NCBI GenBank assembly: GCA_030684835.1
Contig: JAUXWZ010000084.1
Coordinates: 1-41,911 of the forward strand
Length of the DNA: 41,911 nt
Direction of reading: 5' to 3'
Origin: Beijerinckiaceae bacterium
GTDB lineage: Bacteria; Pseudomonadota; Alphaproteobacteria; Rhizobiales; Beijerinckiaceae
The notes beneath the pieces were generated by a model, which was given only the letters and a program-made list of their open reading frames with translations, did no database searches and was not told where the DNA came from. The position numbers and the translations under genes are program-made. Below, one piece after another: positions 15,037 through 23,522 of this stretch; the first letter of the stretch is position 1, and each line of letters begins with the position of its first letter.

Positions 15037-15345
15037 CTAGCGCGTCGGTAGCACGACGAAATGCGCTCCGAACGTCTCTGATAGCGCCTCTTTGGTTTCC
15101 TCATTGATTTGAACGACGGTTACATCCGCCTTGGGCGGCCCGCGGAGCAAGCTCTCGGCCATTTGCGCAACACGGTCGGCATCCCCGGAAAAGACAGCCT
15201 CTACAGACCCGTCGCTTCTATTGCGAACAAATCCGTTCAGTCCGAGCGCAATTGCGTGGGCGTTTACCCACGCGCGGTAGCCAACCCTTTGCACTCGCCC
15301 GCGGACGAAAGCGCGAATAGTGCGTTCATTTGAATTCTCGTTCAT
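15037..15345 (-). CDS. acyP: Acylphosphatase
   Basis: This 102-residue protein hydrolyses acyl phosphates in the cytosol. The phosphate-binding loop is FVRGRVQRVGYRAWV with the catalytic Arg at position 24, and the catalytic Asn is in FVRNRSDGSVEAVFSG at position 42. Length matches the family (about 90-100). In the usual signature (V-Q-G-V-x-F/Y-R) the residue after Q is glycine; here the codon is AGG, so Arg20 replaces it, which could affect activity. It is convergent with rplQ and divergent from the lipoprotein gene downstream. The ATG has only a weak ribosome-binding site. Confidence 0.9.
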   Translation of the reverse strand: MNENSNERTIRAFVRGRVQRVGYRAWVNAHAIALGLNGFVRNRSDGSVEAVFSGDADRVAQMAESLLRGPPKADVTVVQINEETKEALSETFGAHFVVLPTR

Positions 15346-15547: not shown

Positions 15548-16561
15548 ATGGTTTTCTTGCCGTTTGATCGTGTTGGCTTGACCCGTCCATTTGTAGTTTG
15601 CCTACTCGCTGGAAGTCTCGGTGGTTGTTATACGCTGGGTGGGGGCGCGGGTAAGTCAGCGGCGAGTCCCAGCACACCGACGCCGGCAAAATTCGCCTCA
15701 TTCTCCGGCACAGTGACATCGAAGGGCGTCATAACCCAGGCGGTCACCAATCAGGTCGCCGGGACAAGCACGCTGACGGTTGAAACCAAGGATCTGCCGG
15801 CCCAAATCGAGACTTTCGTTCAGCCGCCGGACCCGACCACGAAGCAGCAGCGGGTGGATTTCCGGGCTGGCGGCTACGGCTATTTTGGAACGGATGAGGG
15901 AAAAGTTGAACACAGCGGGGCGGCCGTTCGCGGCTCCGCCGTTCACAGTGCCGATACATGGGTGATTTACACGAACACGCCAGGTTCGCGCCTTGACACG
16001 AGCCTGGGCGCGCCGAGTCTTCAGCATTCCTATGTCGGTGTCGCGAGCCTTGGCAAACGCGCCGCGGGCTCTTCGGGGTCGATGTATTCTTATTCCGCCG
16101 GGTTCTTTGGCGGCGAAAGCACTGCGAATATGCCTGTCTCCGGCAAGGCCGAATACGCGGGGACGTTCGAGGGCTTCCAGGAGACGTCGGTTAATGGCTC
16201 CGAACTGGTTAAAAGCAACATATCGGGCAAGGCAAACCTCGCTGTTGATTTTGGCGCCAATACTGTTCGCGGGCGGATTGACGACATCAACAATCATAGC
16301 GCCGGGCCGGTCAAGGTCGCGACCGAATACAGCGTTGGATACAATGGCAGCATCTCGAAATCATCGTTCACAGGGATGTCCTGGCTGACGCAGAAGAACA
16401 GCGATATGCCGCTTAACGGCTTCTCTCAGAATTCAGGCACGCTTCAGGGTGGCTTCTTCGGCCCGGGCGCGGCTGAGGCGGCAGGCGCCGTTGGCGTATC
16501 GGCGGCGAGTGAATCGAAGAAGTATCTCATCACCGGAGCCTTTGGCGCGAAGAAGAAATAA
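15548..16561 (+). CDS. Surface lipoprotein with TbpB-like C-terminal barrel (probable Slam cargo)
   Basis: The 337-residue protein has a signal peptide ending in the lipobox-like AGSLGG-C (Cys27), then a Gly/Ser/Pro-rich linker. Residues about 160-337 read like the handle and beta-barrel of transferrin-binding-protein-B-type proteins: SYSAGFFGGESTANMPVSG, then SGKANLAVDFGANTVRGRIDD, then GGFFGPGAAEAAGAVGV and the terminal ITGAFGAKK. That last block, with GxFYGPxAxExGG and GAFGAK, is the hallmark of this family. Such lipoproteins are flipped to the cell surface by Slam proteins, and a Slam-like gene begins 5 nt downstream. The ligand is unknown: residues 45-160 have no recognisable domain, and no TonB receptor is adjacent. 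GGGGG precedes the ATG. Confidence 0.85.
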   Translation: MVFLPFDRVGLTRPFVVCLLAGSLGGCYTLGGGAGKSAASPSTPTPAKFASFSGTVTSKGVITQAVTNQVAGTSTLTVETKDLPAQIETFVQPPDPTTKQQRVDFRAGGYGYFGTDEGKVEHSGAAVRGSAVHSADTWVIYTNTPGSRLDTSLGAPSLQHSYVGVASLGKRAAGSSGSMYSYSAGFFGGESTANMPVSGKAEYAGTFEGFQETSVNGSELVKSNISGKANLAVDFGANTVRGRIDDINNHSAGPVKVATEYSVGYNGSISKSSFTGMSWLTQKNSDMPLNGFSQNSGTLQGGFFGPGAAEAAGAVGVSAASESKKYLITGAFGAKKK

Positions 16562-16566
16562 GCCCG

Positions 16567-17877
16567 GTGTTGTCCATCTGGCGCTCTGTATGTCTCGCGC
16601 TGCTGCTCGCGTGTTTCGTTTCTCCGCCCGCGCGAAGCGACGAGGCGGCCGAGAAGGCGGCATTCGAACAGGCTGAGCAGCTGATTCAGGCGCGCCGCTT
16701 CGACGACGCGCGAAAACTGCTGGCCGCGACGCCGCGCGAGAGTGGATACGCACGCGTCTATGGCGGGTTTGTCTATGCCCGTCTCGATGAGGAAACCGGG
16801 CGCCTGACCACAGCGCGCGATGCGTATCGCAAAATCCTTGAGGCCCACCCCAGTCTCGCGCGCGTACGCCTTCATCTGGCGCGCACGCTCGCCAAGCTCG
16901 AAGACAATGACGCCGCACGCCGCCACTATGAATTCGTGCTCGGCGCAGCCGATGTAACCGCGCCTTATGCTGATCGCGTGCGGGCCGATATGCGCCTGCT
17001 CGACGGAGCGAAAAGTTGGAGCGCGCAGGGGTATGTGACCGTTGCGCCAACGTCCAACATGACGAGCGGGGCATCACAGGATGTCATCATCATAGGTGGG
17101 TTGCCCTTCACGCCAGCGGCGGCGTCCCGCCGCAGGCCCGGCGTCGGCGCCTTGTACGGCGCAGACCTCTCCTATGCTGCGCCGGTGTCTGGAAACTGGG
17201 GCTGGGTGGGGACGCTCTCAACCGTCAATCGCGACTATCAGGGCAGTGCGTATGACGATCGCACCGCGCGCGCGAGTGCGGGCGTGCGATATCTAGTTCC
17301 CGGCGGCGTCGCGATGCTTGAGTTGGTCGGGATCCGGCGCTGGTTTGGTGATGCTGGCTACCAATATTCATTCGGGCCCCTTTTATCGACGCGCTTCTTT
17401 GCGACAGAAAAAGATCGCATCACCGGCTCGGTATCTTTTGCCGAACAGCGTTACGACGACGCCAAATATCTGAACGGCCACCGTATATCCCTTGCAGCAA
17501 GCTGGGACAGATTCACATGGCCGGGACAATTCGTTCGCCTCGGCGCTTCGTATGATCGCGAGACGGCGCGCAACGATCACATGACGTTCAATGAATTTGG
17601 CGGGCTGGTTGGATATAATGTCGAGACGCCCTGGGCGCTGTCAGTATACCCGGAGCTTGCCTACGCGTACCGCGCCTACGAAGGCGACTTTCCGTTGTTG
17701 AACGAACCGCGCCGTGATCACCGCGTGGTGGGCTCACTCTCGCTGGTGAAAACGAACCTCACGCTCTTCGGTCTCGCGCCGCGCTTGTTGCTCAGCTACA
17801 CGCACAATTTCTCGAACGTGAAATTCTATCAGTATGACCGCATTGATACGGCGCTCACGCTGACGCGCGGCTTCTGA
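16567..17877 (+). CDS. Slam-like outer-membrane translocator (TPR + DUF560-type barrel)
   Basis: The 436-residue protein has a signal peptide (cleavage probably after the Ala/Arg-rich end near residue 24), an N-terminal helical part with two or three TPR-like repeats (AEQLIQARRFDDARKLL, TARDAYRKILEAHPSLARVRLHLARTLAKLEDNDAARRHYE; about 30-135), and from about residue 150 to the end an alternating beta-strand pattern of a 14-stranded-type barrel finishing in a C-terminal Phe. This layout is that of surface lipoprotein assembly modulators (Slam, type XI secretion), which move lipoproteins across the outer membrane. The start is GTG at 16567, 5 nt after the partner lipoprotein. It converges with the next gene, only 6 bp apart. 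Confidence 0.85.
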   Translation: MLSIWRSVCLALLLACFVSPPARSDEAAEKAAFEQAEQLIQARRFDDARKLLAATPRESGYARVYGGFVYARLDEETGRLTTARDAYRKILEAHPSLARVRLHLARTLAKLEDNDAARRHYEFVLGAADVTAPYADRVRADMRLLDGAKSWSAQGYVTVAPTSNMTSGASQDVIIIGGLPFTPAAASRRRPGVGALYGADLSYAAPVSGNWGWVGTLSTVNRDYQGSAYDDRTARASAGVRYLVPGGVAMLELVGIRRWFGDAGYQYSFGPLLSTRFFATEKDRITGSVSFAEQRYDDAKYLNGHRISLAASWDRFTWPGQFVRLGASYDRETARNDHMTFNEFGGLVGYNVETPWALSVYPELAYAYRAYEGDFPLLNEPRRDHRVVGSLSLVKTNLTLFGLAPRLLLSYTHNFSNVKFYQYDRIDTALTLTRGF

Positions 17878-17883
17878 CGCCGC

Positions 17884-18435
17884 TTACGTGCGATCGAATG
17901 GCGTTGCGAAACGCGGCCGCACTTTTGCGGCAGGCCCGCTGCGCTCTGGCGTCGCCGCGGTTTGCGGTGAACCGTCCGGTGCGCGCCACACGGGCGCGGC
18001 CCCGGCCGCAACACGCGGCGCGCAGGCCGCCAGTTCACGCATATAGGCGTCGGGAAAGGACCAGGCGCGCGCGGCCGCCAGAACGCTTTCCATGTAACCC
18101 GCGCGAGGCTCGCCCCGCGCAGTGGAGGCGCCGACGTAGATCAACGCGCGCGCGCTGCCACCGCCCTCGCGCAGCACCGGTTGCTGGATCTTCTTGTAGA
18201 GCCCGCTGGCGACGCCTTCGTAGCGGTCTAGCGAGCGAACGTCTGCGAGCGCAAGATCCCACAGCACGCCATGGACCGATCGTTGCGGATCGCGCAGGAA
18301 CGAGGCGTACCCGCCTTCCATGATGATGAAGCGGGATCGCGGCAGGCGCGCAGCGCCAAGCGGACGCGAAGCGGGCGCGCGCGTGCGCATTGCCTCGACG
18401 TCCATATTTGAACCGTAAGCAAAATAAAGCGGCAT
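17884..18435 (-). CDS. Gamma-glutamylcyclotransferase-like protein
   Basis: The 183-residue protein opens with LYFAYGSNMD, the YGSN loop that binds the gamma-glutamyl group in the GGCT/AIG2 fold, and contains VHGVLWDLALADVRSLDRYEGVASGLYKK, where the Glu of DRYEG is the expected acid/base residue. Proteins of this fold release 5-oxoproline from gamma-glutamyl amines or glutathione, but many bacterial members are uncharacterised. The C-terminal 50 residues (Pro/Ala-rich) are outside the fold. It follows the carboxylase alpha subunit by 50 nt on the same strand and could be co-transcribed. Confidence 0.8.
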   Translation of the reverse strand: MPLYFAYGSNMDVEAMRTRAPASRPLGAARLPRSRFIIMEGGYASFLRDPQRSVHGVLWDLALADVRSLDRYEGVASGLYKKIQQPVLREGGGSARALIYVGASTARGEPRAGYMESVLAAARAWSFPDAYMRELAACAPRVAAGAAPVWRAPDGSPQTAATPERSGPAAKVRPRFATPFDRT

Positions 18436-21861: not shown

Positions 21862-23397
21862 CTAGAGCGGAATATTGTCGTGCTTTTTCCAAGGGTTCTC
21901 CAGCTCCTTGTGACGGAGCTTGGCAAGCGCGCGGGCGACCCGGCGACGGGTGGAGTGAGGGCGGATCACATCGTCGATGTAGCCCCGTTCGGCCGCCACG
22001 AACGGCGACAAAAAGCGCTCTTCGTATTCTTTTGTGCGGCCCGCGATCTTGTCCGCATCGCCGATATCGGCGCGGAAGATGATCTCCACCGCCCCCTTTG
22101 CGCCCATCACCGCAATCTGCGCCGTGGGCCACGCATAGTTCACATCGCCGCGCAGATGTTTCGATGACATCACGTCATACGCGCCGCCAAACGCCTTGCG
22201 CGTGATGATGGTGACCTTGGGCACAGTCGCCTCCGCATAGGCGAACAGCAACTTCGCGCCGTGCTTGATGAGCCCGCCGTATTCCTGCGCCGTGCCCGGC
22301 AGAAAGCCCGGCACATCCACGAAGGTGACAATAGGAATGCCGAAGCAATCGCAGAAGCGCACAAACCGCGCCGCCTTGCGCGATGCGTCGCTATCGAGCA
22401 CGCCAGCGAGCACCATCGGCTGGTTGGCGACAAAGCCCACCGTGCGCCCGTCGATACGGCCAAAGCCCGTGATGATGTTCTTTGCGTGCGCCTGCTGAAC
22501 CTCGAAGAAATCGCCCTCGTCGGCGATCTTCACGATCAGCTCCTTCATGTCATAGGGCTTGTTGGGATGGTCCGGGATCAGCGTATCCAGCGACATGTCG
22601 ATGCGGTCGGACACATCGAACGTCGGCCATTCCGGCACATCGTCGCGGTTCGAGGCGGGCAGAAAATCAATGAAGCGCCGCATCTGCAACAACGCTTCCA
22701 CATCATTGTCGAACGCGCCGTCCGCCACGGAAGACTTTGTCGTATGCACAGACGCGCCGCCGAGTTCTTCGGACGTCACCGTCTCGTTCGTCACGGTCTT
22801 CACCACATCGGGGCCGGTGACGAACATGTAGCTGGTGTCGCGCACCATGAAGATGAAGTCCGTCATCGCGGGCGAATACACGTCGCCCCCCGCGCACGGG
22901 CCCATGATGAGCGAAATCTGCGGAATGACGCCCGAGGACAGCACATTGCGCTGGAACACCTCGCCATACCCGCCGAGCGCCGCGACGCCCTCCTGAATAC
23001 GCGCGCCGCCTGCATCGAACAGGCCAATAATGGGCGCGCGGTTGCGCAGCGCCATGTCCTGGATCTTGGTGATCTTCTGCGCGTGGGTCTCCGACAGCGA
23101 TCCGCCGAAGACCGTAAAATCCTTGGCGAACACATAGACGACGCGCCCGTTCACCGTGCCCCACCCGGTGACGACGCCGTCGCCGGGGATTTTGTCGCCC
23201 TTCTCCATGCCAAAGTCGGTGCAGCGGTGCTGCACGAACATGTCGTATTCCTCGAAACTGCCGTGATCGAGCAGCAGCTCCACCCGCTCGCGCGCCGTCA
23301 GCTTGCCGCGCTTGTGCTGCGCATCAATGCGCCCCTGCCCACCGCCAAGGCGAGCATTGGCGCGGCGGTCTTCGAGGGCTTCGAGAATGTCTTTCAT
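21862..23397 (-). CDS. pccB: Acyl-CoA carboxylase beta subunit (propionyl-CoA carboxylase type)
   Basis: The 511-residue carboxyltransferase has the two crotonase-like halves of the family: the N-terminal half with [50 protein letters not shown] and [12 protein letters not shown]; the C-terminal half with [45 protein letters not shown] and [13 protein letters not shown]. These are the oxyanion-hole glycines and acyl-CoA pocket. The strong match of the VPGFLPG and AFGGAY blocks points to propionyl-CoA carboxylase. I chose the ATG at 23397 ([20 protein letters not shown]); the frame is open to 23442. The repeat copy at 23523-23552 lies in its upstream region. Confidence 0.93.
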
Positions 23398-23522
23398 GGG
23401 GCGGCGCTTTCGAGGACGGTTTGTCTGGCCCCTGTTTAGCACGGGAGGGACGGGGGCTGAATGCGACGGAGGGAGGGGGCGCCCTCAAACGCACAATGGG
23501 AAGCGGGCGCGATGCCCCCGCG

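Follow-up and report, generated by a model that had tools for sequence, protein, structure and literature searches.

The stretch of DNA analysed here (the window) comprises positions 1-41,911 of contig JAUXWZ010000084.1, forward strand, from a Beijerinckiaceae bacterium (assembly GCA_030684835.1). It contains two neighbouring genes in the same orientation, one encoding a lipobox protein with a TbpB-type barrel (hereafter the cargo) and the other a Slam-family outer-membrane protein. An initial annotation had proposed that they form an export pair for a surface lipoprotein. The pair is best explained as a whole as a compact type XI (Slam) secretion unit, with a probability of about 0.86. The features of the pair are as follows.

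15548..16561, forward strand: cargo, a predicted surface lipoprotein of 337 amino acids with an ATG start (open reading frame, Pfam and AlphaFold2)
15626..15628, forward strand: codon of the lipobox cysteine, Cys27, of the cargo (found by eye in sequence and translation)
15686..16129, forward strand: region encoding the more variable part of the cargo, residues 47-194, with the handle-like N-domain and the pedestal (pairwise identity, 780 pairs)
16567..17877, forward strand: Slam, a predicted type XI secretion system (T11SS) outer-membrane protein of 436 amino acids with a GTG start (PF04575, E-value 1.5e-26; AlphaFold2 predicted local distance difference test score, pLDDT, 85.6)

The stop codon of the cargo gene is separated from the Slam start by 5 nucleotides, exactly as had been annotated. 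Given this spacing, co-transcription of the two genes is very probable, and their translation may also be coupled. No shared promoter or iron box was seen in the upstream regions of five loci, which were inspected by eye only.

The second protein matches PF04575 SlipAM (DUF560) at residues 151-436 with 94 bits against a cut-off of 22, and the full model is covered. Its N-terminal part passes the general TPR model TPR_19 (25.9 bits, cut-off 25). The AlphaFold2 model (predicted template-modelling score 0.72, from 23 sequences) consists of a signal helix, seven helices of the TPR region (about 22-147) and, at about 150-435, 14 long strands and two strands of three residues. The outer-membrane barrel of Slam has 14 strands, and the number of long strands in the model agrees with this, as judged from strand count rather than barrel closure. 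The TPR-plus-barrel layout that had been ascribed to the protein is thus recovered in profile and model alike. NCBIfam gave sub-cut-off matches only, mostly to TPR proteins, and the solved structures related by sequence were chains with TPR or helical repeats, designed proteins and other, weak matches, with no Slam among them. The protein might instead be a porin of the ordinary type or a different, PgaA-like TPR-barrel exporter, accompanied by a lipoprotein facing the periplasm, and a sub-cut-off match to DUF2860 as well as the failure of the dedicated TPR_Slam model to reach its cut-off would suit this explanation. The full-length SlipAM match, the 14 long strands next to a TPR region and the pairing with a TbpB barrel in all eight strong genus loci (described below) make it very improbable, and a plain porin is ruled out by the SlipAM score, the TPR region and this pairing.

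The cargo has the lipobox LAGSLGGC ending at Cys27, followed at position +2 by Tyr rather than Asp, and it terminates in ITGAFGAKKK; both the lipobox and the GAFGAK-like end had been noted at the outset. PF01298 TbpB_B_D matches residues 195-336 with 54.2 bits (cut-off 26), and PF08794 FHBP_C is just passed (28.8 bits, cut-off 28.1). In the AlphaFold2 model of the cargo (pLDDT 85.8), the signal peptide and lipobox, up to Cys27, are followed by a flexible linker (about 28-46), a nine-strand N-domain (about 54-189) and an eight-strand TbpB-type barrel (about 200-336). Two of the outcomes that had been named as damaging to the proposal, a second protein that is an ordinary porin and a first protein without the TbpB barrel, were looked for, and neither was found, since PF04575 and PF01298 are both passed. 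Structure comparison relates the cargo to the TbpB C-lobe, the NHBA C-terminal domain, fHbp and haemophilins. Because the TbpB C-lobe and haemophilin matches span the N-domain together with the barrel, the predicted architecture looks like the known handle-plus-barrel arrangement, although the sequence of the N-domain is unmatched. TbpB proper is ruled out, as the 337-residue protein has one N-domain and one barrel instead of two lobes, and no TbpA or other TonB receptor lies alongside.

The N-domain had been described as matching nothing known. This is correct for its sequence outside its own family, whereas its fold is predicted confidently, with nine strands and a handle-like shape. When residues 45-190 were searched alone against 370 candidates, 16 matches were obtained at E <= 1, all from the cargo's own family; 15 of them carry PF01298, and the sixteenth, P0034, is a protein of 234 amino acids without a Pfam entry. 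The cargo alignment (A1) holds 40 of 46 matches, P0034, P0036, P0037, P0042, P0044 and P0046 being left out as short or distant. With a best E-value of 2.5e-20, PF01298 was found in all 40 at E <= 1. These relatives have few further matches in Pfam and NCBIfam, and weak ones, namely BAALC_N in seven members, Mucin in six, PapD_N in four (best E-value 0.0011) and pilus-chaperone models in three each.

The distribution of the two families also favours a functional pair. The own assembly (4.93 Mb, 96% complete, 208 contigs) has one SlipAM match and one TbpB_B_D match, and they are adjacent, while neither family was matched in 14 control genomes. A search of the genus with the Slam alignment (A2, the window protein and 22 of 24 matches) found 10 of 51 genomes, the own included, eight matching strongly and two weakly. 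In each of the eight strong genomes, a cargo gene is immediately upstream of Slam. Thus, the pairing exceeds what chance would give. It may be added that 185 of 353 Slam homologues have been reported to adjoin a lipobox gene (PMC5449769). Beyond the genus, PF04575 matched one of 99 sampled family genomes, the own genome, and the A2 search matched 27 of 397 sampled order genomes, some via TPR repeats only. Of 29 short loci around these order-level matches, which include TPR-only ones, 16 have open reading frames that match the barrel profile (two genomes counted twice). In G524 (L004:1-4451), three different cargo genes stand in a row before one Slam; the contig end truncates the first of them, whose missing start may be represented by a fragment found on another contig. 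Multiple-cargo Slam clusters are known, with nine in a 2017 survey (PMC5449769).

From these results, i.e., the Pfam cut-offs passed, the predicted folds of both proteins and the fold matches of the cargo, the pair is taken as a type XI unit, and the following course of export may be proposed by analogy with studied relatives. The cargo would be made with a lipoprotein signal peptide and lipidated at Cys27. A lipoprotein without Asp at position +2 is expected to leave the inner membrane via the Lol route, which the Tyr-bearing cargo would therefore take. It would be kept unfolded in the periplasm, where Slam would recognise the C-terminal eight-strand barrel with assistance from the TPR domain. 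Passing through the 14-strand barrel of Slam, it would reach the outer leaflet and fold there to display the handle-like N-domain. In proteoliposomes, Slam1 has been reported to translocate unfolded TbpB (PMC9090332).

Several results weigh against this interpretation. PF24575 TPR_Slam scores 30.9 bits in the second protein against a cut-off of 35.2. The Slam-dependent lipoprotein model slam_lipo (NF041636) gives the cargo 45.5 bits against a cut-off of 80, and membership in this narrower model is not claimed. Among the matches listed for the cargo, Foldseek template-modelling scores are low (0.26-0.37 by query length), and the VIA rows spanning both domains have root-mean-square deviations of about 4-5. 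The periplasmic holdase Skp has been reported as essential for functional TbpB translocation in Neisseria meningitidis, and in Escherichia coli surface TbpB was halved when Skp was lost (PMC9090332). PF03938 (Skp/OmpH) reached its cut-off in none of the 51 genus genomes, as compared with six of the 14 controls, including E. coli and Caulobacter. At a loose limit of E <= 1, 39 of the 51 genus genomes have some match; since all 14 controls do so too, these matches are uninformative. In the own genome (G000:C77, L125:1338-5114), bamA is followed directly by lpxD about 100 nucleotides away with no gene between. Export here would need another holdase or an Skp too divergent to detect.

The genes on both sides of the pair are as follows.

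15037..15345, reverse strand: acylphosphatase-like gene, left flank of the pair site (NCBIfam acylphosphatase models, best E-value 5.4e-25, under that model's cut-off; synteny)
17884..18435, reverse strand: GGACT/AIG2-like gene, right flank of the pair site (PF13772 and PF06094 above cut-off; synteny)

The ribosomal cluster mentioned in the initial annotation is secY-adk-rpsM-rpsK-rpoA-rplQ, after which come the acylphosphatase-like gene (reverse), cargo and Slam (forward), the GGACT/AIG2-like gene (reverse) and a biotin carboxylase gene (reverse). As in the window, the pair is located between acylphosphatase and GGACT in L005, L006 and L009. L003 and L004 begin inside or just before a cargo gene and have GGACT after Slam, while neither flank is visible in L007. 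In L008, acylphosphatase and GGACT adjoin each other and the pair is found at another position, beside the carboxylase gene and separated from GGACT by a TPR and glycosyltransferase family 41 gene (L008:6691-8739). For comparison, 15 other genus-mates were fetched, 13 without a Slam match and two with the weak type. Acylphosphatase and GGACT are neighbours in 11 of these, and the remaining four have no acylphosphatase in the fetched stretch. In several Slam-less genus-mates, GGACT and the carboxylase gene are about 2 kb apart. G487, which is 100% complete and has no Slam match, shows a spacing of about 20 nucleotides between acylphosphatase and GGACT by aligned ends. In a tree of three flanking proteins, G487 clusters with the window and L003 (support 71; whole clade 77); G505 has no flank in this tree. 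Most simply, the pair would have been gained once at the site in the clade of G000, G527, G487, G491, G508, G509 and G524 and lost once, in G487, with G489 having gained or moved it separately. Independent gains of the pair are possible, since the tree support is modest.

The two weakly matching genus-mates have a second type of Slam locus, in which a gene for a FecR-domain protein overlaps a divergent Slam gene by 4 nucleotides.

L056:6453-8075, FecR-domain protein; L056:8072-9406, divergent Slam
L057:6934-8565, FecR-domain protein; L057:8562-9893, divergent Slam

The divergent Slam of L056, which was scanned, has a SlipAM match of 49.9 bits. The upstream proteins (540-543 amino acids) have FecR above cut-off at the N-terminus and a sub-cut-off TbpB_B_D match at the C-terminus (E-values 0.0041 and 0.00097), and no lipobox was seen in them by eye. 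One section of a survey of T11SS loci names cargo architectures, with no FecR-TbpB combination among them, and FecR appears nowhere in the main text of that survey (PMC12282271). It is possible that these proteins represent a new T11SS cargo architecture.

As to its role, the cargo might serve as a haemophore or metal scavenger on the cell surface and supply a TonB receptor whose gene lies elsewhere in the genome. The own assembly has four TonB receptors, all on other contigs. By NCBIfam, two of them exceed the siderophore-receptor cut-off, one is BtuB-like and one is ZnuD-like below cut-off; none of the four reaches the cut-offs for haem or for haemoglobin/transferrin/lactoferrin receptors. 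On the window's contig there is no PF00593 match, in agreement with the initial annotation, and no receptor match was found in the scanned selection of open reading frames from the genus loci. The eight strong Slam genomes have 1-4 TonB receptors as compared with 0-18 across the genus (a few sub-cut-off matches included). A dedicated TonB partner was therefore rejected, there being none on the contig and the receptor counts not separating Slam genomes from the rest of the genus. Within cargo residues 41-194, no His, Cys or Met is conserved in at least 70% of 38 relatives (38 of the 40 A1 rows, two incomplete rows being left out), and the conserved positions are E121, N123 (Ser in the window), G124, R128, G129, the stretch 143-154 and Tyr162. 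This lack gives no support to a carrier of haem or metal, but does not exclude one. Moreover, the cargo fold is matched by fHbp and NHBA as well as by haemophilins, and neither fHbp nor NHBA is known to carry iron. A haemophore feeding a distant receptor is thus unlikely. At roughly even odds, the displayed domain binds a macromolecule or surface outside the cell, in adhesion or capture, rather than supplying a dedicated TonB receptor with haem or iron; this is the weakest step of the interpretation.

The exposed part of the cargo is more variable than its barrel. Between the window and L003, identity is 82% for the cargo as compared with 92% for Slam, 93% for GGACT, 96% for biotin carboxylase and 98% for a carboxyl-transferase-like gene (21862-23442). 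Over 780 pairs of cargo relatives, mean identity is 37.7% for residues 47-148, 54.6% for 149-194 and 62.8% for the barrel. There are also two apparent mosaics. P0008 and P0009 have identical barrels and are about 70% identical in the rest, whereas P0004 and P0014 are nearly identical to about residue 235-240, beyond which P0014 follows P0025 and P0026. These variable handles, the mosaics, the three different cargos before one Slam and the patchy presence of the pair in the genus could suggest a diversity locus, in which phages, predators or rivals drive variation of the displayed domain and the conserved barrel serves as a recombination anchor. However, rapid divergence of an exposed domain is ordinary. 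Of the metagenomic cargos, P0009 is on a contig of 559 kb and P0008, P0004 and P0014 are on contigs of 1.4-1.6 kb; because the latter are under 2 kb, the mosaics may be assembly artefacts arising from misassembly between co-occurring paralogues. Such a locus is accordingly improbable. Although this is doubtful, the pair could be a surface-display cassette in a lineage of environmental alphaproteobacteria without recognisable Skp. In such a cassette, the conserved barrel would be kept as an export tag, and cargo genes that stand in tandem or co-occur would recombine and so exchange very different handle domains, yielding a variable surface unrelated to iron piracy.

The pair shares with neisserial Slam1 and Slam2, which act with TbpB, LbpB, fHbp and HpuA, a TPR region with a SlipAM (DUF560) barrel and a lipobox cargo with a C-terminal eight-strand barrel, and the genes for Slam2 and HpuA are likewise reported as adjacent (PMC5449769). 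It differs in that the cargo is single-lobed whereas TbpB has two lobes, no TonB receptor lies alongside, and the genus has no Skp above cut-off. Haemophilins such as HphA, which are single-lobe T11SS cargos, have a fold similar to that predicted for the cargo. However, a sequence-profile search found no haemophore chain among solved structures at E <= 10, and the conserved residues and TonB neighbour are lacking as described. Rhodobacteraceae and Roseobacteriaceae are alphaproteobacteria. Their cluster 3 T11SS loci come in part from non-host environments and rarely have a TonB receptor, and some of their cargos are lipoproteins of 282-375 amino acids with an eight-strand barrel, as here (PMC12282271). 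Unlike those loci, the part of the neighbouring genes scanned here includes no thymidylate synthase, glyoxalase or DUF1194. An environmental alphaproteobacterium fits as the host.

Collectively, the machinery is of a known kind, an ordinary Slam pair in a little-studied host, and its points of interest are the Skp-less background and the possible swapping of domains. If the display-cassette explanation is true, Slam export can use another periplasmic chaperone, and the TbpB barrel serves generally as an export module that can be exchanged. The unit has two genes and confident models, its site is occupied in some relatives and empty in others, and its background apparently lacks Skp; it would be well suited to testing what Slam export requires and what such surface proteins do outside animals.
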